Positions 10,795-29,905 of a stretch of 32,499 nucleotides of DNA are shown one piece after another. Origin of the DNA: Spirochaetaceae bacterium. GTDB taxonomy: Bacteria > Spirochaetota > Spirochaetia > DSM-27196 > SLST01. Location: the NCBI GenBank assembly GCA_007118855.1, contig SKQU01000092.1, positions 1-32,499 of the forward strand, read 5' to 3'. A program made the translations under genes and the position numbers. The notes under the pieces were generated by a model. That model was not told the DNA's origin and did not search any database. It saw only the letters and a program-made list of their open reading frames with translations. Every line of letters starts with the position of its first letter. Position 1 is the first letter of the stretch.

Positions 10795-12675
10795 GTGGCC
10801 CACGATACCCGAAACTCCACGAACGTGCATCCCCCAATCCCTCCGCTCAGGACGCCTCGGTGGCGCTTCTATGCGTTATTTCTCCTGATCACCGCCGCCG
10901 CGGTCACCGTGCTCGTGCGCTACGGCTCGATCATGATCGGAGGGCCGCCGCCCGGCGGCTCATCGGCCCCGGAGAGGACCGAACGCGGCCCCGTTCTCGA
11001 TCGCAACGGCCGGATCCTCGCGATCCAGACGGAGCTGGAGACCGTCTGGGCATGGCGCCCGGAGGTTCAGGATCCTGAGCGCACCGCCCTGGAGCTCTCC
11101 CCGATCGTCGATATCAGCGCGGCCGAGCTGCGCAGCAGGCTTGCCGGCCCGACGGGCTCGGTCACGCTCAAGCGTACGATCTCGCCGGCAGAAAGCGAGG
11201 CGATACGGGCCGCGCGTGAGGCGGGGCTCCTGCAGGGAGTGCGCCTGCGACCCGACTACGGGCGCAGCTATCCCGAGCAGGACTCGCTCGCAGCCGCGCT
11301 CGGTTTCGTGGGAGCCGACGGGTACGGACTGGCCGGCATTGAGTACACGATGGAACCGTGGCTATCCCCCGGACGCGACGGCGGGTACGGAAATCAGGTC
11401 TTCCTGACGATCGACATGAACATCCAGCACGAGGCCGAGCGCCTCGCTCGGCGGGCGCTCGACGAGCACCGGGCGGATTCGGTCGTACTGCTGACCATGG
11501 ACTCGCGCTCCGGTGATATCCTCGCCTACGCATCGGTTCCCGGCTACGACGCCAACCAGTTCGCAGAGTACCCCGAGCACGCGCGACGCAACCGCCCCAT
11601 TTCTGATGTGTACGAGCCGGGAAGCGTCTTCAAAGTGTTCTCCATCGCCGGATTCCACCATCTCGGCACCATGGATTCGAGCACGACCTTCGCCACTACA
11701 GGCCGCTACGACGGTACGACACCGCCGATTCGTGATCTCGCGAACTACGGCACGATCGATATGACCGGGATCATCCGGTACTCGAGCAACGTGGGAGCGG
11801 CAATGGCCAGCGAACAGGTCAGCGATCGCGCCTTCTACAACATGCTGCGGCTGTTCGGCTTTGGGGAGCGGACCGGGATCGACATGAACGGCGAAGAGGC
11901 GGGATTGCTCGCCCGTCCCGAGAACTGGTCCGGCCGCACGAAGCCCACTATCGCGATCGGACAGGAGATCGCGGTGACGGCGCTTCAACTTACCTCGGCC
12001 GCGACAGTCTTCGCGAACTCCGGCGTCCTGATCAAACCCAATATCGTAGACAAGATCGTTTCGCCGAACGGTCGCGTCATCCGCAACTACGGGCGCACGC
12101 CGGTGCGTGAAGTGGTAAGTCCGGCTACTGCCCGAGAAGTGCTCCTCGCGATGGAACAGGCGGTCGTCGCCGGCACCGCGAGACGACTCGCCTACGACGG
12201 GCTGCGCATCGCGGCGAAGACCGGCACCGCCGAGAAGATCGATCCGCGGACCGGCACATACTCCACCGAGGCGTTTCTCGCCTCGACCCTCGCGATCCTG
12301 CCGGTCGAGGATCCAGGCCTGGTAATCTACATGGCGATCGACCACCCCAGGACCGGAGAGTTCTACGGCGGGCGCATCGTGACTCCGGTCATGCGCGAGT
12401 ACCTCGATTTCCTCGTCCCCTACCTGGGGATACCGCTCGAGGGAGACCGGACGATCGCGCATCCGGGCCGCATCACCGTGACTCCGGTCCGGCTGCCGGC
12501 GATCACCGACACGGTCCCCGATTTCACGGGGCTACCCAAGCGTTCGCTCCTGCCGCTCCTGGAGATCGAAGGCATTGACATCCGCATCGACGGATTCGGG
12601 TGGGTCGCGCGGCAGCGGCCCGCGGCCGGCACGCCCGTGGAGCCGGGAATCACCATCTACCTGGAATTGGAGTAA
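10795..12675 (+). CDS. Class B penicillin-binding protein with C-terminal PASTA domain (FtsI-like)
   Basis: A monofunctional D,D-transpeptidase that cross-links peptidoglycan in the periplasm. It has 626 residues: a short cytoplasmic tail, one span (about 25-48), a PBP dimerisation domain beginning RGPVLDRNGRILA, and the transpeptidase domain. The active-site motifs are S277-x-x-K280 in EPGSVFK, S330-x-N332 in RYSSNVG and K475-T-G in AAKTGTAEK, all intact. A final PASTA-like segment (about 560-626, VPDFTGLPKRSLLPLLE then PAAGTPVEPG) ends the protein. It resembles FtsI/SpoVD more than PBP2 of the elongasome, but it is outside a dcw cluster here. The start is GTG 10795, the first start codon after the promoter. 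The maf Shine-Dalgarno lies in its last codons, so the two are co-transcribed. Confidence 0.93.
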   Translation: MAHDTRNSTNVHPPIPPLRTPRWRFYALFLLITAAAVTVLVRYGSIMIGGPPPGGSSAPERTERGPVLDRNGRILAIQTELETVWAWRPEVQDPERTALELSPIVDISAAELRSRLAGPTGSVTLKRTISPAESEAIRAAREAGLLQGVRLRPDYGRSYPEQDSLAAALGFVGADGYGLAGIEYTMEPWLSPGRDGGYGNQVFLTIDMNIQHEAERLARRALDEHRADSVVLLTMDSRSGDILAYASVPGYDANQFAEYPEHARRNRPISDVYEPGSVFKVFSIAGFHHLGTMDSSTTFATTGRYDGTTPPIRDLANYGTIDMTGIIRYSSNVGAAMASEQVSDRAFYNMLRLFGFGERTGIDMNGEEAGLLARPENWSGRTKPTIAIGQEIAVTALQLTSAATVFANSGVLIKPNIVDKIVSPNGRVIRNYGRTPVREVVSPATAREVLLAMEQAVVAGTARRLAYDGLRIAAKTGTAEKIDPRTGTYSTEAFLASTLAILPVEDPGLVIYMAIDHPRTGEFYGGRIVTPVMREYLDFLVPYLGIPLEGDRTIAHPGRITVTPVRLPAITDTVPDFTGLPKRSLLPLLEIEGIDIRIDGFGWVARQRPAAGTPVEPGITIYLELE

Positions 12676-12677
12676 CA

Positions 12678-14393
12678 ATGGATGCGGCGCCGGACCTTCG
12701 CCTTGATGCCGCGGCGAACGGCAGCCCCACGCTCATCGCCGCAGGGCGCTACCTTCACAGCCGCGTTGACCCGCAACGGGAAGCAGCGAGGGCGATGGCG
12801 GCCTGCGCGCGACGCGAGCCGGCCGCCGTGCTCCTCTTCGGACTCGGCCTTGGGTACCATGCCGCGTACCTGGTCGAACACACGGAGTCCACAAGGGTCG
12901 TGGTCTTTGAGCCGGTAGCACGGATCGTCAGCATCGCGCGCGAGCACGGATCACTCGAGCGACCGCTCCAGTCCGGTCGCCTGACGATTGCCGGCGATGC
13001 GGATTCGCTATCCAGGCTCCTTCCGCAGACTGCCGCCGAAGGCTTCGAGACCTTCGTGCTCCCGGGCGCTCTGCGCCTCAGCGACGAGTACGCGGCCGCG
13101 CGAAGAATCAGCGACTCGTTCTATCGTCGGCTCGAGATCAACCACAATACGCTCCAGCGCTTCGGACGCCTCTGGGTTCGCAACCTCTGCCGCAACCTCG
13201 ACGTCATTGCCGACGCATACGCGGTGGCTTCGCTCACCAACGCCTTCTCCGGCATTCCGGTGCTCCTGCTGGCCGCCGGACCGACGCTCGACCAGATCCT
13301 TCCCGTGCTTCCCGAGCTCTCGCGCCGCCACCTCACCATCGCGGTGGACACGGCGATCGCCCCGGCTCTGCGCGCCGGCGTTCGCCCCGATTTCGCCGTG
13401 GTCGTCGACCCTCAGTACTGGAACGCCCGCCATCTCGACCGCCTGGCGAGCGAAACCACGATGCTTGTCTCCGAACCGTCCGCGCACCCCTCGGTCTTCC
13501 GGCCGTTCGCGGCGCAGACCTTTCTCTGCTCGAGCGTCTTCCCGCTCGGCCGGGCTTTCGAGCAGAGCCTCGGACACTTCGGGGTGCTCGGGGCGGGGGG
13601 CTCGGTCGCCACAACCGCCTGGGATCTGGGACGTCTGATCGGCGCAGCGGACATCGCCGTCGCAGGACTCGACCTCGGGTTCCCCGACGGGAGGACTCAC
13701 TGCCGGTCGAGCTACTTCGAGCACCTTGCGCTGTTGTGCGGGACCAGGTACGCCACGGCGGAGTCGGTCGTCTTCCGGTACGTGTGGGGCGCCGGAGCAC
13801 ACGCAATCGAGGCGAACGATGGCGCTACGATCCTTTCGGACAGGCGCATGGAGATCTACCGCCGGTGGTTCGCCGAACAGCTTGCCCTGCCCGGGGCGCC
13901 GCCCACGCTCGCCATCACCGCCGGAGGGGCCGCCGTGGACGGGATCTCGCGGCTGAGTCTCGTCCGGGCACTCGCGAAGCCCCCCTGTCGCGACGAGATC
14001 GACCGGCGCATGGCTGCGATGCGCAGCACTCTCCCCCCGAAGGAGAGCCGGCGAAGGGCATCACTGGCGGCACGCGCCGACGAGCTGCGGGGGCTCCTGG
14101 AGGACCTGCAGGGCGTCGCCGAGCAGGCGGCCGCAACGGTTCGCCGGATTCGTCAAGACCGGCAGACCGGAGAGCGGGTCGACTTCACCCCGCTCATACC
14201 GCTCGATCGCCGCCTGGGAAGGCACCCCGCCGGGGCAATCGGGGGATTTTTGATTCAGGACGCTATTTCGCGGATCCGTGCGGGGTACGGCAGCGCCGAT
14301 CTCGGCGAGCAGATAGACGCTTCGCTGAGGATGTACGAAGGGCTCGCCGAAGCGGCCGCCTATCACGCGGACCAGCTCGGACGCCGGTCATAG
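12678..14393 (+). CDS. Maf / MptE-like (DUF115) protein, probable flagellin glycosylation factor
   Basis: A 571-residue protein of the motility accessory factor family, whose central domain resembles the pterin-kinase-like MptE fold and which, in other bacteria, helps attach nonulosonic-acid sugars to flagellin. Seen here: an N-terminal Rossmann-like glycine motif (LFGLGLGYHAAYLVEH), the central DUF115 signature PVLLLAAGPTLDQILPVLPE, AVDTAIAPALRAGVRPDFAV and the later IAVAGLDLGFPDGRTHCRSS, then a helical C-terminal region. The start at 12678 is set by GGAG seven bases upstream, overlapping the PBP stop; the frame is open further back but that would lie inside the PBP gene. Its usual neighbours are flagellin or sugar-synthesis genes; here it is instead paired with a PBP. 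The sugar donor and target are not shown by the sequence. Confidence 0.85.
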   Translation: MDAAPDLRLDAAANGSPTLIAAGRYLHSRVDPQREAARAMAACARREPAAVLLFGLGLGYHAAYLVEHTESTRVVVFEPVARIVSIAREHGSLERPLQSGRLTIAGDADSLSRLLPQTAAEGFETFVLPGALRLSDEYAAARRISDSFYRRLEINHNTLQRFGRLWVRNLCRNLDVIADAYAVASLTNAFSGIPVLLLAAGPTLDQILPVLPELSRRHLTIAVDTAIAPALRAGVRPDFAVVVDPQYWNARHLDRLASETTMLVSEPSAHPSVFRPFAAQTFLCSSVFPLGRAFEQSLGHFGVLGAGGSVATTAWDLGRLIGAADIAVAGLDLGFPDGRTHCRSSYFEHLALLCGTRYATAESVVFRYVWGAGAHAIEANDGATILSDRRMEIYRRWFAEQLALPGAPPTLAITAGGAAVDGISRLSLVRALAKPPCRDEIDRRMAAMRSTLPPKESRRRASLAARADELRGLLEDLQGVAEQAAATVRRIRQDRQTGERVDFTPLIPLDRRLGRHPAGAIGGFLIQDAISRIRAGYGSADLGEQIDASLRMYEGLAEAAAYHADQLGRRS

Positions 14394-14455: not shown

Positions 14456-14516
14456 ACGGTATGCAGCGCACCGACGAGGAATCGTCGGAGCCGACGTCCA
14501 GGCATACCGTTTTTTT
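14456..14516 (+). terminator. Nested rho-independent terminator of the PBP-maf operon
   Basis: A perfect 9-bp stem, ACGGTATGC (14456-14464) with GCATACCGT (14502-14510), encloses a second perfect 7-bp hairpin CCGACGA-GGAA-TCGTCGG (14471-14488). Seven Ts (14510-14516) follow. The T run contains part of the complement of the cheA stop codon (14515-14517). On the minus strand the stem is preceded by As but not followed by Ts, so strong termination is expected only rightwards. Confidence 0.8.
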
Positions 14517-16428
14517 ATGCCCGCGCACCCGTCGCCGCGGCCAGCCGCTCCTCCACGGCTATGCTTGCCGGGAACACGAATACCGCATCAGAGCCGGTGG
14601 TCCGGGAGTGCACGTGTCGAGAGCCCGTCTGCTCTCGCACGACCGCCTCTTCCCCGAGCACCGCATCTGCGAGGAGGACCCGGCGGTCCGTTCCCGCGCG
14701 CACGACCAGCCCGACCGAACCGTCGCGCACGCTACGCAGGCTCGCCGCGCGACCGCTCATGGTGGAGAGCTGGAGCATCCGGCCGTCATGGGTATAGTAG
14801 AGACCGCCGAGGCTGTCCCTCCTGACCCGGGAACGCTCTATGCGCTCCTGCCCGATCACCGTCGCCCGGGGTATCGCGTACGCAGACCCCTCGCTCTCGG
14901 CGACTACCACGTGAACGAGCCTGGTCGCCGCGGGAACCGTCACGACGAAAGAGACTCCGGCGTCCGGCTTGTTGATCATCCGCAGCTCACCCCTGAGCAG
15001 GGTTCGTACCGTGTGGACCACGTTGTCAAGGCCCACACCGCGCCCGGAGCTTCTGTCCGGGGCATCACGCATGGAGAAGCCGGGGCGGGCGAGAATGTCG
15101 AGCAGAGCCGACTCCTGCTCGCCGCTTCGCTCGCGCACCGCCGCCTCATGCACCCCCTTGCCGTCGTCCTGAACGATCATCCGCACGCGTTCACCGAGCC
15201 GGTCGACCCGTATCCTGATCGTGGCCGCCGGGTGCCGTCCTGCCGTCGCACGAGCCTCGATCGTCTCGATCCCGTGGTCAATGCTGTTACGCACCAGATG
15301 CATCACAGCCTCGAGCAGCGCATCGCCCACGGCCGCGGACACCAGTGCGCCCTGTCCACCCACGGCAACACGCACGCGCTTGCCCTGACCGGCGGCGTAC
15401 CTGATCGAACTGAGTCTGACTTCACGCAGCAGATCGAGCAGCTGCACACGGGCGTGCACGTTCACCCGATCCTGCAGGATCCCGGCATAGTGCGCAGCGC
15501 GACGAAGCGCGGGGGCGAGATCGCCGGAAGCACGCGCACCGTCTCCCACGATCGAGACCGCGGCGGCAACCTCGTCGGCGAGCAGAAGCATCTCTTCCTG
15601 GTTCTCCCACACGGGAGGAGCCTGCACCGGGGCTCGCTCGGACACCGCGAGAGCTCCCGGGTACGGCTCATCCGACTCGTCGAAGACCTCCGCGAAACTG
15701 AGCTCGGTGATCTCCATGAGCTCGACCTCGTCCACGTGGACCGCGCGCCGGACGCTCTCTTCATCACCCCCGCTCGTCACGATGATCGTCAGCTGGCGCG
15801 CAGCGGCTCGGTGCATGTCCTCGGCAGGCGGCTCGACGCTCACGACTGCGCATGATATCTCGAGGTTGTTGATCACGAGGAACGCCCGCGCGTAGCGCAT
15901 CTGCGGCACCGTATCAATGCCCACGACAACCCGGTAGAGCCTTTCCCCGCGTAACCGCGCCTCCCTGAGGATTCCCTGCTGCGCGGCGAGGTGCCTCGAC
16001 GTGTGGCGCGCCTGCGCACCCTCGGTGCGCTCGTCTGCATTGCCGCCGCAACCGGCGGCCTCAGTCGCTGCGTCGGCCTCCGGAGAACCGGCCCCTCGCT
16101 CCCGTGATGCGCGGTATCTCTGAAGCGCGTCCGCGAGCTCGCGCACGCCCAGGCGCAGCGCCGCCGCGGTAGACTCATCGATCGCCCCGCCTCCCTTGCG
16201 GACTCCGGTCAGCGTATCCTCGAGCAGATGCGCTGACTCGGCGACGGCGGTGACCCCGAGGAAACCGGCTTCGGACTTGATGGAGTGAGCCGCGCGAAAG
16301 GCACGGTCGATCTCGGCCGCGGTTCGCTCGCCGGGCTCGACTGCGCCGAGCACACGGTTGAGCGTTCCCAGCATGATCGTGCTGTCCGAATCGAACATCC
16401 GCTCGAGTTTCCTGCTCTGCAAGCTCAC
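14515..16428 (-). CDS. cheA: CheA-type chemotaxis histidine kinase
   Basis: A soluble kinase expected to phosphorylate CheY in response to receptors. It has 637 residues. The P1 HPt domain carries the phospho-acceptor H48 in AFRAAHSIKSEAGFLG. A P2-like response-regulator-binding segment (about 155-260) follows an Ala/Glu-rich linker. A divergent P3 (about 295-350, LQDRVNVHARVQLLDLLREV) leads into the P4 ATPase with N box HLVRNSIDHGIE, G1 DDGKG, F box ARPGFSMRD and G2 SGRGVGLDNV. A P5 CheW-like domain (about 500-620) ends it. All catalytic boxes are intact. It starts with GTG 16428, overlapping the previous stop as GTGA, with GGGAG just upstream. It is the last gene of the flagellar operon, away from any cheW/cheX/cheY genes in the window, so it may be a second or specialised CheA. 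Confidence 0.9.
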   Translation of the reverse strand: MSLQSRKLERMFDSDSTIMLGTLNRVLGAVEPGERTAAEIDRAFRAAHSIKSEAGFLGVTAVAESAHLLEDTLTGVRKGGGAIDESTAAALRLGVRELADALQRYRASRERGAGSPEADAATEAAGCGGNADERTEGAQARHTSRHLAAQQGILREARLRGERLYRVVVGIDTVPQMRYARAFLVINNLEISCAVVSVEPPAEDMHRAAARQLTIIVTSGGDEESVRRAVHVDEVELMEITELSFAEVFDESDEPYPGALAVSERAPVQAPPVWENQEEMLLLADEVAAAVSIVGDGARASGDLAPALRRAAHYAGILQDRVNVHARVQLLDLLREVRLSSIRYAAGQGKRVRVAVGGQGALVSAAVGDALLEAVMHLVRNSIDHGIETIEARATAGRHPAATIRIRVDRLGERVRMIVQDDGKGVHEAAVRERSGEQESALLDILARPGFSMRDAPDRSSGRGVGLDNVVHTVRTLLRGELRMINKPDAGVSFVVTVPAATRLVHVVVAESEGSAYAIPRATVIGQERIERSRVRRDSLGGLYYTHDGRMLQLSTMSGRAASLRSVRDGSVGLVVRAGTDRRVLLADAVLGEEAVVREQTGSRHVHSRTTGSDAVFVFPASIAVEERLAAATGARA

Positions 16429-17027
16429 TGCTCCCTCTCAACGCCTTCGCCCAGGGCGACGATCAACTCTACCTCACCAACGGTCTTCCCGACAATCGAT
16501 GCGATCCGTTCGAGCGTAACGCCCTGCAGGTACAGGCCGCGCACGCGTTCGCGCACATGTACAGCGGGAGCGTCAGCAGGCCGACGAGGCTCGTTCCCGC
16601 CGGATCCCGCAGCGGACGACGTGGACGCCGTGCGCGGTTCCCGCGATGCCTCGGTCCGTGAGTCCGGCCCGGCCCCGCAATCCTGACCTGCACGGGTGGG
16701 TTCGACCGGCCGTCCGGATCCCGTGGATACGGCGAGTCGGCGGTAGGTGTCCGACTCTACCTCCCGCGACGAGAGATCGCGTCGCAGCGCGCCGACACGG
16801 CGATCGGCCTGGGCTATGAGCTTCTCGAGCGTCCGGATTCTATCCTCGATGAGCTCGATATTCCTCTCGGACGTTGCGTTGAGCTCGGTGATGATAGCGC
16901 CGACCTCCCGCCTGATCTCTTCGAGAGCCTCCTGGCGGCTCGTTCGCGCGACGATTGTGCGATTGAGGACGAGGTAGGCGACGAGCACCATAATGGTCGT
17001 GATCGCGAGCGAGACCCATCCACCCAT
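16425..17027 (-). CDS. SwrB/DUF6115-like membrane coiled-coil protein
   Basis: A 200-residue protein with one N-terminal span (about residues 5-22), a coiled coil (about 28-95, ITELNATSERNIELIEDRIR then LEKLIAQADRRVGALRRDLS), a Pro/Ser/Gly-rich linker (about 105-155) and a C-terminal helix-turn-helix-like unit, RVRGLYLQGVTLERIASIVG, ending GEVELIVALGEG. That layout and the closing GEVELI motif resemble the DUF6115 proteins that follow the flagellar sigma factor in Firmicutes, including B. subtilis SwrB, which stimulates flagellar basal-body and export-apparatus maturation. The assignment rests on remembered motif, architecture and gene order. The ATG at 17027 lies 2 nt after the preceding stop. 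Translationally coupled to cheA by GTGA. Confidence 0.65.
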   Translation of the reverse strand: MGGWVSLAITTIMVLVAYLVLNRTIVARTSRQEALEEIRREVGAIITELNATSERNIELIEDRIRTLEKLIAQADRRVGALRRDLSSREVESDTYRRLAVSTGSGRPVEPTRAGQDCGAGPDSRTEASREPRTASTSSAAGSGGNEPRRPADAPAVHVRERVRGLYLQGVTLERIASIVGKTVGEVELIVALGEGVEREQ

Positions 17028-17029
17028 AC

Positions 17030-17353
17030 CTACCCGCAGACATCAACGTTCTGGCCGAGGTCCGGATCGCGGAACACCTGGTCGTCGGCTCGCTCGTCCC
17101 TGGCCTCAGTGCCGCGCTCGCCGGATCCCCGCTTCTCCTTCCCCGACTCGTCGTTCACCTGCTCCGGGCCCTCCTCGTCGGTGCGCGCCTGGGTGACGCG
17201 GTGCTCGAGCTGCTCGCTCTGCTCGGCGATCTCACTCGCGGCGACCATCTGAGCCTGTGCCTGCGCTTCACGGAGGGTGGACTGATCCCTCCCGATCTCA
17301 TTGAGCCGCGAAAAAAGCACCTGCAGGTCGATCGGTTGGATCGCCACGCTCAT
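17030..17353 (-). CDS. Small conserved-type flagellar-operon protein of unknown function
   Basis: A 107-residue hydrophilic protein without signal peptide or span. It begins with PIDLQVLFSRLNEIGRDQST, continues with a Gln/Glu-rich helix (about 24-58) and ends in a highly charged, low-complexity tail. Short proteins with a similar opening PIDLQV and a charged tail occur at the same place (after FapA) in clostridial flagellar operons; I infer a family relation from that memory, without a known role. The start overlaps the fapA stop by ATGA, and the stop is 2 nt from the next ATG, so it is firmly embedded in the operon. Confidence 0.7.
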   Translation of the reverse strand: MSVAIQPIDLQVLFSRLNEIGRDQSTLREAQAQAQMVAASEIAEQSEQLEHRVTQARTDEEGPEQVNDESGKEKRGSGERGTEARDERADDQVFRDPDLGQNVDVCG

Positions 17354-19293
17354 CTCCGCCCGATGGTCACATCCTCATCGGTCTCTTCGTACTTCGTCAC
17401 CTTCACCATGCCCTTGTCGGAGATGAAAGTGACCGCCTTGAACTCGTTTCGAACCTCCAGGTACGCGTCCTTGATGCTCACGCGAACGCCCGGGAAGACC
17501 GTCCCGGACGCGGACACTCGACCCGCGACCTTCAGACCGTCGAGGTATTCGCGAAGCTCCGCGGCTTCCTTCTCGATCTTTCTGAGGTCGCCCTCGAGGG
17601 TGATCCGCTTCTCCTTCAGCTCCTGGTAGTAGCGCTTCTTCTCGTCGGACACCGGACGCCCCGACTTCACGAGGCTCTCAATGGTGCTCATGTTCAGCTT
17701 CACGTCATCGAGCTGATGGGTGCACGAGTCGCGCTTCTCCTCGATCGCACCGAGCTTCTCCTTGCGCTTGGGATCGTACCCCACCTCGAGTATGGTCTCG
17801 CTTCCGGCCACCGACCCGAGGCTCTTCGCGTTGATCTCCTCAACGGCTTTCACCTGACCGCCGACGATGCTCGCCCGCTTGCCCTTGCAGATGATCTTCC
17901 GGTCGCAGAGCACCGTCGAGCTCATGATCCCGTCGGAGACGACGACGAGATTCCCCGCCTCGACACGGGCGTTCTCAATGAATTTCGACCAGAGGCTGCG
18001 ACCGCAGCGGATGGTCCCGCTGCTCTTGCCGGCTACCCCCTGATGAACGATGATATCACCTTCGGCGTCGAGGTTGCTCTTCCCGACGTTGCCCATGACC
18101 TCGATATTGCCCGCCGCCTTCACCGTGAACCCGTCGTCCACGTTCCCCTTCACGAGCACCGTCCCGAGGAACAGGACATTGCCGGTGCGCAGGTTGACGT
18201 CGCCGTTGATCACGTGAACAGGCTCCACGGTGATCTTGCCCGCGTTGATGACGACCTGACCGTTGATCTCCGCGAGCGCGGTCTTCCCGTCGTCACTCAG
18301 ACGAACGTTCTTCCCCACCGGGAACTCGACGTCCTTGCCGTCGTTCGCCGGCAGAAGGCGTCCCGTGACCGTCCGTCCGGGCTCGCCGCGTTTGGCGGGC
18401 TCCTTCTTCGCAAGCACCTGCCCCTGCACCACATTCTGAACGAGGTTCAACTCCTTGAAATCGACCTTGCCGTTCGTCTCCTTCAGCTTCACATGGCTCA
18501 CGTCGAGCTCGAAGCTGTACCGCACCCGCGCGTCATCGCCGTTCTTCGGCGGCACTCCGAAGGCGACGAGCACCGATTCACGATAGCGCGGGTCATCCGC
18601 GTACCGCTGCACCGCCTCCTCGTCTATCCCCTCCGCCACACCGTTCATCTGCAGAAACGAGACGATCTGGTCGTAACTCGGATCGGCTCCGCCGTCGCCG
18701 GGCGGGTACGCCTTGAGATACGCCTTCATCTCGTTGTCTGCGAGCTCCACGGACAGAGACGCGTCCGCCGAAGGGTCGTACTGGAACTCGCCAACCTTGA
18801 TGAACTCGCCCTGCGCGAGTTTCACGGCCTTCGCGACACGGCCCTTGTCGAAACCCTCGTCGACCCGCTCGAGCAGTTTCTCCATCGCCTGACGCTCGGT
18901 AGCCTTCGCACCGCCTCCCACCGGCTTCGTGACTTTCAGCATGATCCCGTCGGGCGCCATGCGAACGAAGACCTCACCGTCGCGATCCGCGTCTACCTCT
19001 TCTTCGGCCAGCAGCGAGAGATCGATAGCCGGCCCGGACTCCTCGGCGTCTCCGCGCGCCTGCTCGGGCATCGGGTACGCGAGAATGAGAAACGGCTTCC
19101 GCCCGACACCCATCATCCCGCGGGTGCCGCGCTCGAGCACCTCGTATTCGACGCGCTTCAGCGGCAGTCCGAGCTCGATCGCCGCCTGTTGCAGCGCGTC
19201 CTCCAGAGTCTCTCCGGAGACGGTGACTGCTTTCCCCTCGTCCCTGGAGAGCTCCTCTCTCATGTACGACTGGATCTGATCGAGGGTAACCAT
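17350..19293 (-). CDS. fapA: FapA-family (DUF342) flagellar assembly protein with N-terminal Jag_N domain
   Basis: A 647-residue cytosolic protein. Residues about 21-73 form a Jag_N-like domain (VTVSGETLEDALQQAAIELG then EVLERGTRGMMGVGRKPFLI), as in the RNA-binding protein Jag/KhpB. The rest is the FapA/DUF342 body: an acidic linker, an alpha/beta N-terminal region and a long run of beta-helix-like repeats (VHVINGDVNLRTGNVLFLGT, ITVEP, GNIEVMGNVGKSNLDAEGDI). A helical hairpin with charged residues (about 535-590) is followed by a final beta segment. In Vibrio vulnificus a FapA protein localises to the pole and affects flagellation; function here is inferred. ATG 19293 lies one base after the fliA stop and gives MVTLDQIQSYM; the open frame to 19332 lies within fliA. 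Overlaps the next gene by ATGA. Confidence 0.9.
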   Translation of the reverse strand: MVTLDQIQSYMREELSRDEGKAVTVSGETLEDALQQAAIELGLPLKRVEYEVLERGTRGMMGVGRKPFLILAYPMPEQARGDAEESGPAIDLSLLAEEEVDADRDGEVFVRMAPDGIMLKVTKPVGGGAKATERQAMEKLLERVDEGFDKGRVAKAVKLAQGEFIKVGEFQYDPSADASLSVELADNEMKAYLKAYPPGDGGADPSYDQIVSFLQMNGVAEGIDEEAVQRYADDPRYRESVLVAFGVPPKNGDDARVRYSFELDVSHVKLKETNGKVDFKELNLVQNVVQGQVLAKKEPAKRGEPGRTVTGRLLPANDGKDVEFPVGKNVRLSDDGKTALAEINGQVVINAGKITVEPVHVINGDVNLRTGNVLFLGTVLVKGNVDDGFTVKAAGNIEVMGNVGKSNLDAEGDIIVHQGVAGKSSGTIRCGRSLWSKFIENARVEAGNLVVVSDGIMSSTVLCDRKIICKGKRASIVGGQVKAVEEINAKSLGSVAGSETILEVGYDPKRKEKLGAIEEKRDSCTHQLDDVKLNMSTIESLVKSGRPVSDEKKRYYQELKEKRITLEGDLRKIEKEAAELREYLDGLKVAGRVSASGTVFPGVRVSIKDAYLEVRNEFKAVTFISDKGMVKVTKYEETDEDVTIGRR

Positions 19294-19294
19294 C

Positions 19295-20083
19295 CTACAT
19301 GATTCCCTTCTTGATGTTCGTGAGCTTCGCACGCAGACGCATGATCGCCTTGGTGTGCAGCTGAGAGACCCGCGACTCGGTGACCTCGAGAACCTGGCCT
19401 ATCTCCTTCAGCGTCAGGTCTTCGTAGTAGTAGAGGACAAGAACCTTCTTTTCCTTGTCCGGGAGCTCCTGGATCGCCTCCATGATCACCCGCTTGATCT
19501 CGTCCTTCTCGACGATGATGTCCGGGTTGAGGCTGTTCGGGCTCTCGATGCTGTCGGCGATAGAGACCTTGTCGCTGTCCTCACCGGTGTACCAGACGTC
19601 GTTGAGGCTGAGGATCGACGTTGCCGATATCTTCAGCATCGTCTTCTCGAACTCCTTCGCGGACATCCCCATCTCCCTGGCGATCTCCGCGTCACTCGCC
19701 GCGCGTCCGAGCGTGCTCTCGAGCCTCCGCACGCTCTCCTCGATCTCACGACTCTTCTGACGAACCGACCGCGGCACCCAGTCGATAGACCGCAGCTCGT
19801 CGAAAATCGCACCGCGAATGCGTGTCACCGCATACGTCTTGAACTTGACATGCTTATCCGGATCGAACTTCTCGATCGCATCGAAGAGCCCGAACACGCC
19901 GTAGCCGACCAGGTCGTCAAACTCGACGTTATGAGGCATACCGACGGCGACTTTGCCGGCCACGTACTTCACGAGCGGTGCGTACTGCTCAACGAGACGG
20001 TCACGGACGTCGGAGTCGCGCGTCGTCTGGTAGATCCGCCACAGCTCTTCTTCGGTCTTCTCTGCCAGGAGGTTCTCTCCCAT
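19295..20083 (-). CDS. fliA: Flagellar sigma factor FliA/WhiG
   Basis: An alternative sigma factor of the sigma28 group that directs RNA polymerase to late flagellar and chemotaxis promoters. It has 262 residues. Region 2 is clear ([20 protein letters not shown], then [20 protein letters not shown] and [20 protein letters not shown]). Region 3 follows ([20 protein letters not shown]), and region 4 with its helix-turn-helix is [20 protein letters not shown] followed by [20 protein letters not shown]. Nothing is missing. The ATG at 20083 has a GGGGAG directly upstream and lies 12 nt after the previous stop. Within the operon it follows flhG and the acidic-tail membrane protein. No flgM anti-sigma gene is visible in the window, so control of its activity cannot be judged here. 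Confidence 0.97.
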
Positions 20084-20095
20084 GACTCCCCTTCC

Positions 20096-20758
20096 CTATT
20101 CCTCTCGCTTCAGGACCGTGCGAATCGCACGGGCCATTATGCTCGGGTCCTCACCCGACCGACCGGAATCATCGACATCTTCGACCGCAGCATGGTCGTC
20201 GGAGAAACCTTCGGACAGCCCCTCGATGTCAGGGAGCCTGCCCGCAAGCTCTACGTCGGAAACCTCCTCCAGTTCACCGGCATCGTCCGAGTCGTCTGTT
20301 TCCGCGTAGGCCGACCGATCGGTCGACTGTTCGACCGACTCATCGGCCGCCTCGAGCTCGGCGATCTCTTCAGCCTCCGGCTCCGCGTCTGCTGCCTGCT
20401 GCTCGTACGCATCTGCGCCGTCCTCGATGACTTCGGCTTCCTCGAGCTCGAGCTCCTCGGCAGGCTCTTCCACATCCGCGGGATCGTCCACCACAATGTC
20501 GACCAGGCTGCCGCTTCGTGACTCGCCGCCGCCGACCGGGTCGCTATCCGGCGAGCCGGCGCGCGTCGTCTTCAGATCAGGCAAATACTTGTCCACGACC
20601 CAGGAGATCGCTGCGGCGAGGGCCGCGAACAGCACGGCACCGACCAGGGCGCGTCCGAGGAGCGTGGCGAAAGGCACACCACTGATGAGTCCCGTCACCA
20701 GAGAAAGGAAGACTGCCGCACCGGCGGCACCTGCACTCACGCGCCAATCGAACCTCAT
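20096..20758 (-). CDS. Unknown membrane protein with very acidic cytoplasmic tail
   Basis: Not recognised. It has 220 residues. The N-terminal 65 contain two probable spans (about 8-27 and 35-56). The next ~120 residues are extremely rich in Glu, Asp and Ala with few hydrophobic residues, so they are probably disordered. The last ~20 residues are basic and amphipathic (PSIMARAIRTVLKREE). Its position between flhG and fliA is where several Firmicutes carry a PilZ/YcgR-like gene, but no PilZ signature is present here. The ATG at 20758 has AGGA 8 nt upstream, and the 38-nt gap after flhG is among the larger gaps in the operon. It may be an adaptor acting through its charged tail; that is a guess. 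Confidence 0.75.
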   Translation of the reverse strand: MRFDWRVSAGAAGAAVFLSLVTGLISGVPFATLLGRALVGAVLFAALAAAISWVVDKYLPDLKTTRAGSPDSDPVGGGESRSGSLVDIVVDDPADVEEPAEELELEEAEVIEDGADAYEQQAADAEPEAEEIAELEAADESVEQSTDRSAYAETDDSDDAGELEEVSDVELAGRLPDIEGLSEGFSDDHAAVEDVDDSGRSGEDPSIMARAIRTVLKREE

Positions 20759-20771
20759 GGTGCTGTCCTAC

Positions 20772-20800
20772 AGGGTAGATAATAGCACATAGGCCGTCAA
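20772..20800 (-). promoter_or_regulatory. Weak candidate internal promoter before the fliA cassette
   Basis: On the minus strand TTGACG (20800-20795) overlaps the flhG stop codon. A 17-bp spacer and TACCCT (20777-20772) follow, about 14 bases before the ATG of the acidic-tail protein. The -35 is good (5 of 6) but the -10 is poor (3 of 6). If real, it would let fliA-fapA-cheA be made separately from the rest of the operon. Confidence 0.25.
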
Positions 20801-21666
20801 CCTGGGCTCCCGAAGAGCTTCCGGATGAACTGACCGACCCCGCCGCCCTCCTTGTACTCGATCTTCTCCAGCCTGCCGACGATGTGTCTCACCGACACCG
20901 ACGCCTTCCCCGTGGGATCATGGACCAGAAACGGCCGCTGCCTGAGAACGGCTTGGTGGACCGCCGGGTCCTCGTAGACGCAGCCGAGGTAGTCGACTTT
21001 CAGGTTGAGGAACTGGCTCGCGATGTTGATCACCCGTTCGGCCACCTTCTTCCCCTCGGTGACGCTCTTCACCCGGTTGACGATCAGCTTCAGCGAAAGG
21101 CCCAGATTGTCTATCTCGGTCGCGATGATCTTGATGATGCCGTACGCGTCGGTGATGGCCGTTGGTTCGGGCGTCGTCACGATGATCGCCTCGTCCGCCG
21201 CGGCGACGAAGGAGAGCACGTTATTCGAGACCCCTGCGCTCGTATCGATGATGATCACGTCCGCCGTCGCGAGCTCTGACAGCTCGGTGATGAAGTTCTG
21301 GCGCTCCTCCTCGTCAAGATTCGCGATCTTCGCAAAGCCGCTTGCGCCGGCGACGATCTGGATACCGTAGCTCGTATCCATGATGATCTCCCTCATCGTC
21401 TTCTGTTTGCGGATGAGGTGATAGAGGTTGTACTTGGGAATGATCCCGAGCACCACGTTCACGTTCGCCAGGCCAAGATCCGCGTCCATCAGGATCACCT
21501 TCTTGCCGAGCTTTGCGTAGGCCAGCGCCAGATTCGTCGAGATGTTGGTCTTCCCCACCCCGCCCTTGCCGCTGGCTATCGTGATGATCCGTGTCCTCCC
21601 GCCGGGATTGCCGGCGCCGCCGTTAATGCGCATCATCTCACGAAGGGTCTCTGCCTGATCTGCCAT
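20797..21666 (-). CDS. flhG: FlhG (YlxH/MinD-like) ATPase controlling flagellar number
   Basis: A ParA/MinD-type ATPase that works with FlhF to set flagellar number and position and that stimulates FlhF GTPase. It has 289 residues. The N terminus MADQAETLREMM matches the short FlhG activator segment (DQAxxLR). The deviant Walker A is ASGKGGVGKTNISTNLALAY. VILMDADLGLANVNVVLG is the switch I/A' box, VIIIDTSAGVSNNVLSFVAA is Walker B, and the C terminus holds an amphipathic, basic segment (VGQFIRKLFGSPG) that could bind membrane. ATG 21666 is preferred because GGAG lies 6 nt upstream; ATG 21678 would also begin after the flhF stop but lacks a Shine-Dalgarno. Confidence 0.95.
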   Translation of the reverse strand: MADQAETLREMMRINGGAGNPGGRTRIITIASGKGGVGKTNISTNLALAYAKLGKKVILMDADLGLANVNVVLGIIPKYNLYHLIRKQKTMREIIMDTSYGIQIVAGASGFAKIANLDEEERQNFITELSELATADVIIIDTSAGVSNNVLSFVAAADEAIIVTTPEPTAITDAYGIIKIIATEIDNLGLSLKLIVNRVKSVTEGKKVAERVINIASQFLNLKVDYLGCVYEDPAVHQAVLRQRPFLVHDPTGKASVSVRHIVGRLEKIEYKEGGGVGQFIRKLFGSPG

Positions 21667-21679
21667 CGTCAACTCCATA

Positions 21680-22963
21680 CTACGCGACTGCAAAGCGCTT
21701 CTCGAGCGCCGTACGAGAGACCGTGAATCCCTCGAGTTGCATCAGGAGGCGAATCCGGGTCGCACGTTCAATGTCCTGTGGAACCCGCTGTCCATCGGTA
21801 ATGAAGGATATCGGTTTCTGCCGCTCGGCAAGCACGCTGATGATATTCCCCGCCCGCGTCGTCTCGTCCATCTTGGTGACCACTACGGCCTCATACTTGA
21901 ACGGCTCGAACTGCGTCGCGATCTCCGCGACGTCGCAGGTCTTCGTCGTCGCGCTGATCGCCAGGTGCACGCGCGCCCGTCCGCCGCACATCGTGAGCAG
22001 CTCGTTCATCTCCCCCAGCTTGCGGAAATCGCGGGGGCTCTTTCCAATCGTATCAACGAAGATAATGTCGGCGTCCTGGTACAGCGCGAGGTACTTTCGC
22101 ATATCGTCGGCCGACTCCACGAACGACACCGGGACGTCCATGATCTGTCCGTACGTCTCGATCTGCTGCCTCGCTCCGATCCGGTAGTTGTCGATCGTGA
22201 GGATCCGGATATCGCGTCCTCTCCCCCCTCGATCGAGCCCGTACATCGCCGCGAGTTTCGCGATCGTCGTCGTCTTTCCCACGCCTGTGGGACCGACCAG
22301 CACGAAAATCTCCGGCTTGCCGCTGCTGCGGGGTTCGTGGATGCTGATCGACTCGCCGATCCACTCGATCACCCGTCCGTGGACCCCCTCCCGGTCGGCA
22401 AGCTCGTCGACTGAGAGCTCGCGCCTCAACCGGTCGATCATCGCGCGAACGTAGCTCGGGGCGAACCCGTTCTCCTCGAGCCGGATCCGGATCTCGCTGA
22501 TGGTGGGATGTGGATCGTCGCGCCCGCCGTCGATAGACTCGCGCAGACTGCGCAGCTCCAGGAGAACGGTGTCCAGGGTCCTGTCTCCGCCCCGCATCAC
22601 CTCGAGCAGCCGCTTCTTCTCCTCCTCGAGCGTCCGTGCGGAGCCGCCCGTGCTGCCTGGGGCCGGCGATTCGTCGGAAGCTGACCGCAGCGCCGCCGAC
22701 CCGGACGTCTGCGCCGTCGGTGCCGAGGACTGCGCCGACGCGGCGAGCGACGGCGAGACGTTCGACGCAGCCGCGCCGCCCGTGCGGCGTGGCTCACTCG
22801 AAAAGTATCCGGTCACCTCGACCCCTTCACGGCTGAACAGCCCCAGAAAGCCCCCCATACGCACCGATCGATGGTGCATGATCCGGGCATGATCGCCGTA
22901 CTTCAGCCGGATCTTCTCCTGCGCCTCACGATGCGTCGATGCCTGCTCGACAAAGTACTCCAT
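21680..22963 (-). CDS. flhF: FlhF, SRP-type GTPase for flagellar placement
   Basis: A GTPase related to Ffh/FtsY that marks where flagella are built (subpolar in spirochaetes) and recruits early basal-body parts. It has 427 residues. A basic N-terminal B domain (MEYFVEQASTHREAQEKIRL) and an Ala/Ser-rich linker (about 60-115) precede a helical N domain. The G domain follows: G1 LVGPTGVGKTTTIAKLAA, G2-region TIDNYRIGARQQIETYGQIM, G3 IIFVDTIGKSPRD, G4 VVTKMDETTRAGN and the closing SFITDGQRVPQDIERA. ATG 22963 has GAGGAG 5 nt upstream. GTG 22969 also exists and overlaps the flhA stop as GTGA; both give nearly the same protein. Confidence 0.96.
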   Translation of the reverse strand: MEYFVEQASTHREAQEKIRLKYGDHARIMHHRSVRMGGFLGLFSREGVEVTGYFSSEPRRTGGAAASNVSPSLAASAQSSAPTAQTSGSAALRSASDESPAPGSTGGSARTLEEEKKRLLEVMRGGDRTLDTVLLELRSLRESIDGGRDDPHPTISEIRIRLEENGFAPSYVRAMIDRLRRELSVDELADREGVHGRVIEWIGESISIHEPRSSGKPEIFVLVGPTGVGKTTTIAKLAAMYGLDRGGRGRDIRILTIDNYRIGARQQIETYGQIMDVPVSFVESADDMRKYLALYQDADIIFVDTIGKSPRDFRKLGEMNELLTMCGGRARVHLAISATTKTCDVAEIATQFEPFKYEAVVVTKMDETTRAGNIISVLAERQKPISFITDGQRVPQDIERATRIRLLMQLEGFTVSRTALEKRFAVA

Positions 22964-22965
22964 GC

Positions 22966-25050
22966 TCACTCCTCAATCCTTATCTCCGCAAGCGCCTCGA
23001 TGCGGACGTTCGAAACGATCTCCGGAACCGAGAGCACGGACAGGTCCGGGATGTCCCTGCGCGCGCTCGTCTTCACCAGCGGCCGCGCGGCTTCCGAGCA
23101 GAGCACGACCGGCACATGACCGACCTGCTGCACATGCCGCACGGCGTTCATCAGGGCGTTGATCCACTTGCGCTGCGCCTCCGGCGCAAGCCCGGGCACG
23201 GCACCGCCGGCCGTATCAACTCGCGACTCCACCAGTCGCCGCTCCAGCGTCGGGTCGATCGTCATCACATGGATCGTGCGCTCATCGTCGGCGTGCTGGA
23301 GGCAGATCTGCCGGGCCAGGGCCTGCCGAACCTTCTCAACGAGGAAGGTGGGATCCTTGCTGACCGACGCGAAATCCGCGAGCGCCTCCAGAATCGCGAC
23401 CAGGTTACGGATTGACACCTGCTCGGAGAGCAAGCTCTGGAGCACCTTCTGGATCTCGCCGAGAGAGAGTACCGCCTGAACGTCCTCGACCACCGCAGAG
23501 TACTCCTTCTTCAGCGCATCAAGCATGCTGCGAACCTCCTGACGGCCGAGGATGTCGGCGGCATGGTGCTTGATGATCTCAGTCAGGTGCGTCGCGATGA
23601 TCGACGGAGAGTCGACGACGGTGTAGCCGGCACGCTCGGCGCGGTCGCGCACGTCCTCGCTGATCCACATCGCCGGGAGTCCGAACGCCGGGTCGGTCGT
23701 GCGCTCGCCCGGCACCTCTTCCGTGACGCTCCCCGGGTTGATCGCGAGGAAGCTTCCCATTCGAATCGTACCGCGACCGACCTCGGTACCGCGGATCTTG
23801 AAGCTGTACTCGCTCGGTTCAAGACGCATATTGTCGATGATCCGAATGCGGGGAACCACGAGCCCCAGGTCCAGCGCCATCTCGCGCCGGATTCGCGTCA
23901 CCCGATCGAGGAGCTCGGCACCCTTGTCCCGGTCAACGAGCGGCACGAGCCCATAGCCAAGCTCGAGCGAGAGAGGATCGAGCGGCGCAACCGGCGAGAT
24001 CTCGGCGGGCGCTTCCGGCGCCCGGGCCGCAGACTCCTCCCTCGTGCGAGTCTCCTCCTGCACCTGCCGGTGTCCCAACCGATACGCGAGAAAGGCGCTC
24101 GCCACCGAAAGCGGCAGGAGCACGTACCAGGGAAATCCCGGAAGGAAGGCGATGCCGAACAGGAAGGCGGCCACGATCCAGTAGATGCGGCTCTGGCGGC
24201 TGAACTGCTCGGTGATGTCCTCGCCGAACGAGCCGTCGGAGATCGCCCGGGTTACGATGATGCCGGTCGCGGTGGAGATCAGGAGCGCCGGAAACTGCGT
24301 CACCAGACCGTCACCCACGGCGAACCGGATATAGGTGTCGGCAGCGTCGGCAAGCGACTCGCCGTGCAGCGTGACGCCGACGACGATGCCTCCCACGATG
24401 TTAATGACCGTGATCAGAATGCCGACCTTGACGTTGCCGCTGACGAACTTGCTCGCGCCGTCCATCGCTCCGTAGAAGTCCACCTCACGCTCCAGCTCGT
24501 TCTTCCGTTTCGCGGCCACCTCTTCGGTGATAGCGCCGGAGTTGTACTCCGCCTCGATTGCCATCTGCTTGCCGGGCAGGGCATCAAGCGTGAATCGCGC
24601 GGCAACCTCGGCAACGCGCGTCGCCCCCTTCGTGATGACGATGAACTGTACGGCAATCAGAATCAGGAAGATGATGATACCCACGACCAGACCTTCGGTG
24701 CCGGTCGTCCCGACCACGAAATTGCCGAACGCGATGACGATCCGCCCGCGAAAGTCGGCGCCCTGCGTGAGGATGAGCCGCGTAGAGGACACGTTCAGCG
24801 CGAGCCCGAATACGGTCGCGACGAGGAGCAGGGTCGGGAAGACACTAAACTCGAGCGCGTTCGACGTGTAGAGCACGATCAGGATGACGAGCAGACTCAG
24901 CACAATGTTCAGCGACATGAACCCGTCGAGCAGCACGGTCGGCAGCGGGATGATCAGCATCATCACCACGATGATCACGCCTACGGCGACGAGGACGTCG
25001 CTTCGCCGCCGCAGAAACGCGTTACTCAGCACGGACTGGAAATCAGCCAT
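22966..25050 (-). CDS. flhA: Flagellar export gate protein FlhA
   Basis: Core of the flagellar type III export gate; its cytoplasmic domains form the nonameric ring that docks chaperone-substrate complexes. It has 694 residues, the normal length. Eight hydrophobic spans occupy about 1-330. Conserved family phrases are SLNIVLSLLVILIVLYTSNA, FPTLLLVATVFGLALNVSST, RLILTQG, the FHIPEP-region equivalent ALPGKQMAIEAEYNSGAITE and AMDGASKFVSGNVKVGILIT. The C-terminal domain has RIRIIDNMRLEPSEYSFKIR and TVVDSPSIIATHLTEIIKHH. The ATG at 25050 overlaps the end of flhB by 8 bases. Confidence 0.97.
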   Translation of the reverse strand: MADFQSVLSNAFLRRRSDVLVAVGVIIVVMMLIIPLPTVLLDGFMSLNIVLSLLVILIVLYTSNALEFSVFPTLLLVATVFGLALNVSSTRLILTQGADFRGRIVIAFGNFVVGTTGTEGLVVGIIIFLILIAVQFIVITKGATRVAEVAARFTLDALPGKQMAIEAEYNSGAITEEVAAKRKNELEREVDFYGAMDGASKFVSGNVKVGILITVINIVGGIVVGVTLHGESLADAADTYIRFAVGDGLVTQFPALLISTATGIIVTRAISDGSFGEDITEQFSRQSRIYWIVAAFLFGIAFLPGFPWYVLLPLSVASAFLAYRLGHRQVQEETRTREESAARAPEAPAEISPVAPLDPLSLELGYGLVPLVDRDKGAELLDRVTRIRREMALDLGLVVPRIRIIDNMRLEPSEYSFKIRGTEVGRGTIRMGSFLAINPGSVTEEVPGERTTDPAFGLPAMWISEDVRDRAERAGYTVVDSPSIIATHLTEIIKHHAADILGRQEVRSMLDALKKEYSAVVEDVQAVLSLGEIQKVLQSLLSEQVSIRNLVAILEALADFASVSKDPTFLVEKVRQALARQICLQHADDERTIHVMTIDPTLERRLVESRVDTAGGAVPGLAPEAQRKWINALMNAVRHVQQVGHVPVVLCSEAARPLVKTSARRDIPDLSVLSVPEIVSNVRIEALAEIRIEE

Positions 25051-26212
25051 TTCGGCCTCCCACGACTCTTCCGGCCATCTGATAGACCTGCTTCAGCACG
25101 ATGACCACCGCCTCGTAGAACTGCTCCGGTATGGTGTCGCCGATCTCGACCTCCGCGTGCAGCGCGCGGGCGAGCGGCTTGTTCTCGACAACCGGCACGC
25201 CGGCCTCTTCGGCGATCTCGCGGATCCGGAAGGCGATATTGTCCTGTCCCTTCGCGATCACCGTCGGGGCCTCCATGGTCAACCGGTCGTACTCCATCGC
25301 GACGGCGAAGTGGGTCGGGTTCGTCACGACCACATCAGCCCGCGGGACGTTCTGCAGCATATTCCGGCTCAGGAGCTCGTTCATGCGCTGGCGCATCCGC
25401 CCCTTGATCAGGGGATCTCCTTCGAAGGTGCGCCGCTCTTCCTTGACCTCCTGCCGGGTCATCTTCAACGACTCGAGGTGCTGTTTGCGCTGGAACAGAT
25501 AGTCGAACACCGAAAGAACGAGGAGCAGGATCGCCGACTGCAGGAGCATCGCGAACGCAATCCGGGCGACGAGCGAGAATGAGTAGAGGAAAGGCGCGTG
25601 AAGGGTGGCCACGATCTCGTTGATACGGAACGCGACGTTCACGATACCGAGCGCGACAATGAGCACTACCTTGCCCAGGGACTTTCCCAGGTTGAACAGC
25701 GCCTCGCTGCTCATCAGCGCGCGCTGGAAGAACTTGCCGAAGCGCGGCGCGATCCTGTTGAGATCCGGCGTAATCGTCTTCGTCGTAAACAGAAACCCGA
25801 CCTGGACGACGTTACCCAGGATCGCGGCGGCGAAGGCGACCATACCGATGGGCAGCGTCAGGCGGATGAAGTAGCTGTAGAAGGCGTTCATGATCGTGGC
25901 GTCCGTCGTCACATCGACCTCGGTCGACCGACGCAGAAAGTACGAGAGCATCTCCAACGAGTTCGAGAACAGGTACCGCGCGAGCAGGAGCAGGGCCACG
26001 ACGGTGAACAGGAGCACGATCGAGCTCGAAACATCCTGACTCTTGGCAACCTTGCCCTCTTCGCGAGCCTTGCGGATCTTGTGCTCGGTCGGCTCCTCGG
26101 TTCGCCCCTCATCCTCGGCAGCGAACCACTGCAGGTGAACCGCCGCGAGCACTGCGGTCAGCTCGTCGGCTTCGAGTCGCAGATCCTGGGCAAGGGTATC
26201 CTGGCGCGTCAT
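25043..26212 (-). CDS. flhB: Flagellar export switch protein FlhB
   Basis: An export-gate protein that switches substrate specificity from rod/hook to filament after self-cleavage. It has 389 residues. The N-terminal tail is followed by EEPTEHKIRKAREEGKVAKS, the typical FlhB entry, then four spans (about 55-240). A charged linker KMTRQEVKEERRTFEGDPLI leads into the C-terminal domain with the autocleavage motif NPTH in VVVTNPTHFAVAMEY. The site is intact. ATG 26212 overlaps the fliR stop as ATGA. The reading frame stays open upstream to 27286, but that stretch is an out-of-frame translation of fliR and fliQ and is not part of the protein. Confidence 0.97.
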   Translation of the reverse strand: MTRQDTLAQDLRLEADELTAVLAAVHLQWFAAEDEGRTEEPTEHKIRKAREEGKVAKSQDVSSSIVLLFTVVALLLLARYLFSNSLEMLSYFLRRSTEVDVTTDATIMNAFYSYFIRLTLPIGMVAFAAAILGNVVQVGFLFTTKTITPDLNRIAPRFGKFFQRALMSSEALFNLGKSLGKVVLIVALGIVNVAFRINEIVATLHAPFLYSFSLVARIAFAMLLQSAILLLVLSVFDYLFQRKQHLESLKMTRQEVKEERRTFEGDPLIKGRMRQRMNELLSRNMLQNVPRADVVVTNPTHFAVAMEYDRLTMEAPTVIAKGQDNIAFRIREIAEEAGVPVVENKPLARALHAEVEIGDTIPEQFYEAVVIVLKQVYQMAGRVVGGRNG

Positions 26213-27003: not shown

Positions 27004-27273
27004 CTATCCCACCATCGCCGGAATCTGGCGGAACACGTTCTGCGTGAACTGCACGAGCACCCGGATCATCCACGGCCCCATCACGAAGATCGCCAGCAGA
27101 ATCGCGGCGATCTTCGGCACAAAGGTCAGGGTCTGCTCCTGGATAGAGGTCGTCGCCTGGATGATCGAGACCACCAGCCCCACGACAAGACCCGTGACGA
27201 GCGCCGGAGCAGAGACGATGAGGATGTGAAAGATGCCGGTTCGAACGATCTGAATCGCGAATCCAAAGTCCAT
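27004..27273 (-). CDS. fliQ: Flagellar export gate protein FliQ
   Basis: A small two-span subunit of the FliPQR core complex, 89 residues, the normal size. The spans are about 14-40 (LIVSAPALVTGLVVGLVVSI) and 51-74 (KIAAILLAIFVMGPWMIRVL), joined by IQATTSIQEQTLTFVPK, the signature loop of the family. ATG 27273 shares its A with the last base of the fliP stop (TGATG). The longer frame to 27321 lies within fliP and is not needed. Confidence 0.96.
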   Translation of the reverse strand: MDFGFAIQIVRTGIFHILIVSAPALVTGLVVGLVVSIIQATTSIQEQTLTFVPKIAAILLAIFVMGPWMIRVLVQFTQNVFRQIPAMVG

Positions 27274-28735: not shown

Positions 28736-28738
28736 CTG

Positions 28739-28781
28739 TCCCCTCCCGTCAGTGGCGAGGGGAACTCCCACCCCCCTCGCC
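28739..28781 (-). promoter_or_regulatory. Two mutually exclusive hairpins around the fliO Shine-Dalgarno
   Basis: On the mRNA strand, CCCCTCGCC (28762-28754) can pair perfectly with the upstream GGCGAGGGG (28781-28773), a 9-bp stem with a 10-nt loop. Alternatively TCCCCTC (28763-28757) can pair perfectly with the downstream GAGGGGA (28745-28739), a 7-bp stem with an 11-nt loop that buries the best fliO Shine-Dalgarno. The two stems share the same CCCCTC strand, so only one can form. The pairing is seen in sequence; a regulatory role is inferred. Confidence 0.4.
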
Positions 28782-28785
28782 GGAC

Positions 28786-29903: not shown

Positions 29904-29905
29904 CG

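Follow-up and report, generated by a model that had tools for sequence, protein, structure and literature searches.

A CheA-like kinase gene coupled to the fliA-fapA cassette of a spirochaete flagellar cluster

We analysed a 32,499-nucleotide stretch of DNA from a Spirochaetaceae bacterium (contig SKQU01000092.1, hereafter the window). On its minus strand, the gene of the flagellar sigma factor FliA is followed by fapA, two smaller genes and a gene for a CheA-like kinase. The kinase belongs to an operon-linked group that recurs across Spirochaetia and stands apart from other CheAs, and it may serve the flagellar module rather than receptor arrays.

The cassette and its terminal kinase gene

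The cassette and the gene behind it consist of the following features, in the order of transcription of the minus strand.

19295..20083, minus strand: fliA/whiG-type flagellar sigma factor, 262 amino acids (aa) (NCBIfam FliA_WhiG 296.6 bits, exceeding the cut-off of 189.6)
17350..19293, minus strand: fapA, 647 aa, with Jag_N, FapA_N and FapA (Pfam FapA 2.1e-73, FapA_N 4.9e-50, Jag_N 1.6e-14)
17030..17353, minus strand: small protein, 107 aa (33-row alignment; the YjfB slot of PMC11607428)
16425..17027, minus strand: protein with a transmembrane segment, a coiled coil and a C-terminal helix-turn-helix (TM+HTH), 200 aa (35-row alignment)
14515..16428, minus strand: CheA-like kinase, 637 aa (Pfam Hpt, P2 and HATPase_c; structure model)
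12600-14393, plus strand: MptE-like/Maf-type protein (PF01973, 7.2e-27), convergent with the kinase gene

The four genes after fliA are tightly coupled, as an earlier note on this DNA had claimed from their ATGA, 2-nt and GTGA junctions and as the open reading frames (ORFs) and the sequence confirm: 1 nt separates fliA from fapA, fapA and the small-protein gene overlap in an ATGA, 2 nt lie between the latter and the TM+HTH gene, and the TM+HTH and kinase genes overlap in a GTGA. The GTG start of the kinase is preceded by a GGGAG stretch, which two genomes of one genus share without change. The start of fapA was taken as the ATG at 19293; the mechanical ORF call starts upstream, at GTG 19332, and the Pfam scores of fapA were read from that version. 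Between 14300 and 20900, a scan gave no sigma-70-like promoter, against a shuffle mean of 0.8, and with 3 sites the terminator-like signals are no excess over the shuffle mean of 2.9. Because the ORF behind the kinase gene is convergent on the plus strand, the minus-strand cluster appears to end at the kinase.

The kinase shares the P1-P2-P3-P4-P5 order and the catalytic boxes of chemotaxis CheAs (classes F1-F17), with P1 at residues ~3-112, P2 at ~160-248, a short P3 at ~273-326, P4 at ~330-503 and a diverged P5 at ~504-617. In Pfam, the window kinase scores 40.8 bits for Hpt, 39.3 bits for P2 (cut-off 23) and 48.9 bits for HATPase_c; CheW, at 13.0 bits, stays below its cut-off of 23.5. Of 11 members scanned singly, among them the window kinase and that of L052, none attains the cut-off for CheW, the best standing at 22.7 bits. 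Among 30 aligned members, Hpt and HATPase_c are matched by all 30 at E<=0.05, P2 by 26 and CheW by 9. H-kinase_dim (P3) has no Pfam match in these 30, and HMMER is reported to miss this family often (PMC10782961). As a control, the chemotaxis-type CheA of the same genome gives 99.9 bits for CheW and 58.6 bits for H-kinase_dim. The window-type kinase differs from chemotaxis CheAs in its CheW, below the cut-off in all 11 singly scanned members, in the missing Pfam match to H-kinase_dim among the 30 and in its linkage to fliA and fapA.

An AlphaFold2 model of the kinase (mean predicted local distance difference test, pLDDT, 81; predicted template modelling score, pTM, 0.63) shows helices in P1, the fold of P2, a short hairpin for P3, then P4 and a P5 rich in strands. 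The modelled P3 is made of two helices (273-300 and 304-326) and spans ~54 residues, below the more than 70 residues of an extended P3 (PMC10703414, PMC10782961). In this the kinase differs from the spirochaete chemotaxis CheAs, for which PMC10703414 describes an extended P3. A profile search of the PDB retrieved the CheAs of E. coli (6s1k, 4.1e-86) and Thermotoga (1b3q, 8.2e-75), and for the P2 region it gave 1u0s, a solved P2 chain of Thermotoga CheA (E 8.1e-10). The P3-P5 model aligns with 1b3q (Z 21.4, root-mean-square deviation, rmsd, 15.1 over 331 residues) and the P4-P5 model with 2ch4 (Z 21.0, rmsd 9.7 over 293 residues), the domains having moved in both cases; CheA chains are also top-ranked by Foldseek and VIA, chiefly through P4. 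The predicted fold matches Thermotoga and E. coli CheA.

Where the positions are covered, members outside one family (f8, see below) have an HATPase_c (P4) with N, G1 and G2 boxes and an Hpt with its acceptor histidine. All nine catalytic residues (H48, N381, H385, D421, G423, G425, G462, G464 and G466) are kept in 35 of the 35 copies of these other families that cover the nine positions. In this check copies are fitted to a fixed alignment, where the histidine of L081 is scored as lost, yet it is aligned in other alignments.

Distribution and linkage in Spirochaetia

The base sample, 60 relatives plus the genome of the window (61 in all), was searched with the kinase and with FapA. This gave 56 stretches from 52 genomes, 36 chosen for a kinase match and 20 for FapA; with the window the survey covers 53 genomes, and eight of the 61 were left out (G007, G026, G041, G047, G048, G053, G054 and G056). 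By linkage and residues, a kinase with an intact-looking core is present in 37 of the 53. All nine catalytic positions are covered in 35 of these, while the gene is split over two contigs in G004 and cut at a contig end in G036. Strongly diverged copies are found in 2 genomes of family f2 (G015 and G021, the latter with 9/9 catalytic residues), degenerate copies in 6 genomes of family f8, and G008 has a single ORF described below. No kinase was found in G051, G052 and G059, with more than 9.8 kb downstream of the TM+HTH gene covered, and in the last four (G017, G034, G042 and G057) the contig ends too early to judge.

The TM+HTH gene lies upstream of the kinase in the same stretch in 35 of the 37 genomes with an intact-looking core; in G033 and G022 it is hidden by the contig. 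The order thus recurs in dozens of other genomes and is beyond chance. The adjacency first remarked in the window extends well past it, and the possibility that it is a one-genome quirk was rejected.

In 13 of the 35 linked loci the kinase gene directly follows the TM+HTH gene, and in 21 it does so across genes for an Hsp70 and a DnaJ-HEAT protein. In L052 (8582-10925), for example, the Hsp70 (PF00012, 4.3e-153) and the small DnaJ-HEAT protein are encoded between TM+HTH and kinase in overlapping ORFs. The remaining locus, in G037, is a separate case, with one 175-aa ORF (L045:8146-8673, plus strand) that matches both the Hsp70 and the DnaJ-HEAT models, as if fused by an in-frame deletion. By mechanical ORF ends, the kinase ORF overlaps the preceding one in 17 of the 22 loci with intervening gene(s), and the other 5 gaps measure 2-11 nt. 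The chaperone pair, part of the flagellar operon in 21/35 loci, is not seen there in the window's family. That the pair is needed for the kinase was considered and rejected, since it is missing beside the kinase in that family and in six genomes. In 15 entries searched, the listed Hsp70 matches are 36-48% identical to the query, except for G018's own operon copy, and no DnaJ-HEAT match better than E 9e-7 was found outside the G018 operon.

A second sample of 18 genomes covered other families; 15 of these genomes belong to the class of the first sample and 3 to different ones. The kinase is present in one of them, G308, directly behind TM+HTH and again with 9/9 catalytic residues. It was not found in the stretch covered in the other 17, Treponema- and Borrelia-like genomes included; weak matches (5e-10 to 1e-9) in L245-L247 lie more than 4 kb away from TM+HTH and were left out of the count. 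Hsp70 and DnaJ-HEAT are present, with no kinase in the stretch, in G122, G299 and G337. Two ~0.91 Mb genomes, which we take to be Borrelia-like (G291 and G316; L240 and L241), have fapA, the small-protein gene, TM+HTH and an Hsp70 gene (485-486 aa), and no DnaJ-HEAT, kinase or fliA match in the cluster.

Searching the phylum with the single kinase protein at E<=1e-28 matched 7 of 198, and a kinase profile at E<=1e-60 matched 266 of 296; the latter is not a count of the lineage, as the profile also takes ordinary or long hybrid CheAs over most of the profile's own length. Pfam found no che gene among ten ORFs scanned downstream of the kinase. The one receiver domain among these ORFs belongs to a hybrid histidine kinase, which also has SBP_bac_3, HisKA and HATPase domains and is encoded directly behind the kinase of G050 (L090:3631-5745, minus strand).

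Placement among CheAs and proposed role

A tree of P4-P5 was computed from 67 of 159 rows (307 columns, with ordinary rows of more than 340 letters cut at 340). It splits 38 other CheAs (spirochaete chemotaxis-type, long hybrids and other phyla) at 100/99 from all of the operon-linked copies, of which 24 are intact and 5 diverged or degenerate. Those profile matches that were included in the tree fall into the group of ordinary CheAs, with the exception of G308, a true member. The tree contains long rows (L081, L083 and L090), drew compositional warnings and places the five diverged copies unsurely (75/43). A single origin of the operon-linked kinase fits this tree, which is unrooted and leaves that origin unproved.

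Of two P5 columns, one is R in 95% and the other K in 92% of the 38 other CheAs; for the 24 operon-linked rows, counting those that have a letter in these columns, both figures are 0%. Members are 24% alike in P5 and 39% in P4 among the operon-linked kinases, against 32% and 49% among ordinary CheAs; since the latter share the trend, the divergence of P5 is partial evidence. Judged from its sequence, the kinase is distinct from the chemotaxis-type CheA of its own genome. The earlier note had called the terminal gene a cheA, which stands as far as CheA-likeness goes; as a plain chemotaxis cheA the gene does not qualify, given its weak CheW match and its separate place in the tree.

No paper on a flagellar-operon CheA-like kinase was found among the matches listed for open-licence PMC papers. 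In all 13,673 CheAs surveyed by Berry et al. (2023; PMC10782961), HMMER picked up CheW; members of the present lineage that stay below the cut-off may have escaped such profile-based censuses of CheA. Borrelia CheA1 resembles it in being a spirochaete CheA dispensable for chemotaxis in vitro and in its short P3 (PMC10703414). According to the same paper, however, CheA1 is highly similar to the CheAs of other bacteria, so that by description, not by sequence, it is set apart from the kinase. The two Borrelia-sized genomes also have no kinase behind TM+HTH in the stretches covered.

For CheA, one of the most thoroughly studied kinases of bacteria, receptor arrays acting via CheW are regarded as the source of input. 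The CheY-motor pathway would gain a second feed from a conserved CheA lineage that is linked to flagellar assembly genes and combines an intact catalytic core with a worn CheW-like end. We propose, and give it an even chance of being right, that the gene encodes a flagellar-operon-dedicated CheA-type kinase that serves the flagellar module, apart from receptor arrays, via a CheY-type partner. The kinase would be made together with FliA, FapA and the TM+HTH protein. A dimer would bind ATP in P4 and phosphorylate His48 of P1, and P2 would dock a CheY-type receiver that accepts the phosphate. Input would come mainly from a module linked to the basal body, made up of TM+HTH, FlgV and, in loci that have them, Hsp70/DnaJ-HEAT, and not from a receptor/CheW array, because P5 has lost CheA-typical positions and P3 is short, unlike in spirochaete chemotaxis CheAs. 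The output may tune the motor or filament assembly.

A more far-reaching version holds that an array-independent CheA lineage in many Spirochaetia belongs to the module for flagellar assembly, is helped in several lineages by Hsp70 and DnaJ-HEAT, reads the state of the basal body and phosphorylates CheY locally at the pole as a second input to motor state and filament assembly, and that borreliae and treponemes lost it or never had it; we consider this quite unlikely. The absence of the kinase from the borrelia- and treponema-like stretches covered may explain why it escaped study, and its role would bear on the link between flagellar assembly and motor state in free-living spirochaetes.

Several observations weigh against a dedicated, array-independent kinase. 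Hsp70 and DnaJ-HEAT are absent at the kinase locus in the window's family and in G013, G028, G035, G049, G058 and G060, and P3 has a Pfam match in 0/30 members. The modelled P5 still has a CheW-like fold, and the best of the CheW matches among the 30 relatives, at E 2.5e-6, must exceed the cut-off, so that the loss of CheW is graded across members. With such a P5 and the 9/30 CheW matches, coupling to arrays may persist, and the gene could encode a second chemotaxis kinase that still has its place in receptor/CheW arrays and for which the flagellar operon is no more than a location, much as the cheA of Bacillus subtilis also lies within the fla/che operon. We think this unlikely, as P5 is without the canonical positions and less alike than P4 (in part a trend of ordinary CheAs as well) and the ten downstream ORFs scanned offer a hybrid histidine kinase and no che gene.

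Family f8 speaks against phosphotransfer as the constant function. The acceptor histidine and the G2 box are lost in 5/5 aligned copies (L080, L082, L084, L085 and L089), which retain HGIE of the N box and DDG of G1, and a sixth copy, L087, keeps 2/9 catalytic residues; the gene stays in place nonetheless, so the locus can persist without phosphotransfer. G008 (L079) has a 503-aa ORF with N-box-like and G2-like stretches, probably a very diverged kinase homologue; its P2 match is sub-threshold, and the kinase profile matches it very weakly (E 3.1e-5, seven-sequence set). While f8 supports a putative scaffold part of the function, it is improbable that the protein is mainly a scaffold or regulator with phosphotransfer secondary: the nine catalytic residues are kept in all 35 copies of other families that cover them, and a pure scaffold would not need them.

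That the kinase modifies a response regulator which sets FliA-dependent late flagellar expression, rather than acting on the motor, is suggested by its adjacency to fliA and its coupling to regulatory rather than structural genes, and is very improbable given a P2 typical of CheY docking and, as a rule, no regulator beside the kinase in the ten downstream ORFs scanned, where the L090 receiver is the sole one.

The known submodule and the surrounding flagellar genes

The set of fapA, small-protein and TM+HTH genes is an already published submodule of the flagellar superoperon, and the CheA-like gene lies beyond that paper's text. PMC11607428 places flgV next to sigma28, FapA, TM+HTH and a small protein for which it uses the name YjfB, in spirochaetes, Firmicutes and other phyla. 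FlhF, FlhG, FlgV, sigma28, FapA, the small protein and TM+HTH are grouped there as in the window; in the difference, the main text (Figure 2 apart) contains 0 mentions of CheA and 0 of Hsp70. The earlier view that the first three genes follow an order also seen behind sigD/fliA in other bacteria agrees with this submodule. Upstream of the cassette, the window continues with the following minus-strand genes.

20096..20758, minus strand: FlgV candidate, 220 aa (by position and sequence; same place in relatives)
20797..21693, minus strand: flhG (Pfam ParA/CbiA; NCBIfam MinD-type below cut-offs; adjoins flhF)
21680..22969, minus strand: flhF (NCBIfam FlhF, TIGR03499, 197 bits, exceeding the cut-off of 174)
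22966-25050, minus strand: flhA (Pfam match within these bounds)
25043-27286, minus strand: flhB (Pfam match within these bounds)
27273-28094, minus strand: fliP
28121-28789, minus strand: fliO
28845-29909, minus strand: FliN-type gene
29906-30964, minus strand: fliM

By eye, the FlgV candidate has an N-terminus with 2 hydrophobic stretches, a long acidic tail and a short basic/hydrophobic C-terminal end. It fits the spirochaete FlgV described in PMC11607428, to which it is likened by description and not by comparison with the BB0268 sequence. FapA of the window scores 247.7 bits for FapA and 169.8 bits for FapA_N in Pfam. The small protein has conserved ends (IQPIDLQxLF and DPDLGxxIDISG in the 33-row alignment) around a variable polar middle. 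It gave no informative Pfam match (27 families were matched at E<=1, and the 25 of them listed do not include YjfB), and agrees with the YjfB of PMC11607428 by gene position only.

The C-terminus of the TM+HTH protein is a helix-turn-helix with GKTVGEVELIV; its transmembrane segment and coiled coil were judged by eye. Of the suggestion that this protein is like SwrB/DUF6115, the DUF6115 part holds for the C-terminus at family level, where 35/35 aligned relatives match DUF6115 at E<=1 (best 1.5e-7), a loose threshold at which 13/14 control genomes match too, 3 of them above the cut-off. It does not hold for the window protein itself, which at 12.8 bits remains under the cut-off of 27, with profile positions 96-133 of 134 covered. 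In Bacillus, swrB lies after sigD. SwrB is reported as an activator of flagellar export (PMC4526659). The same GEVELI-type end (window 16425-16600, minus strand) resembles the end of the SpiroCoCo family (7.9e-6; SpiroCoCo_C 25.2 bits, below the cut-off of 125), and DUF2802 is matched there in 30/35 relatives at E<=1.

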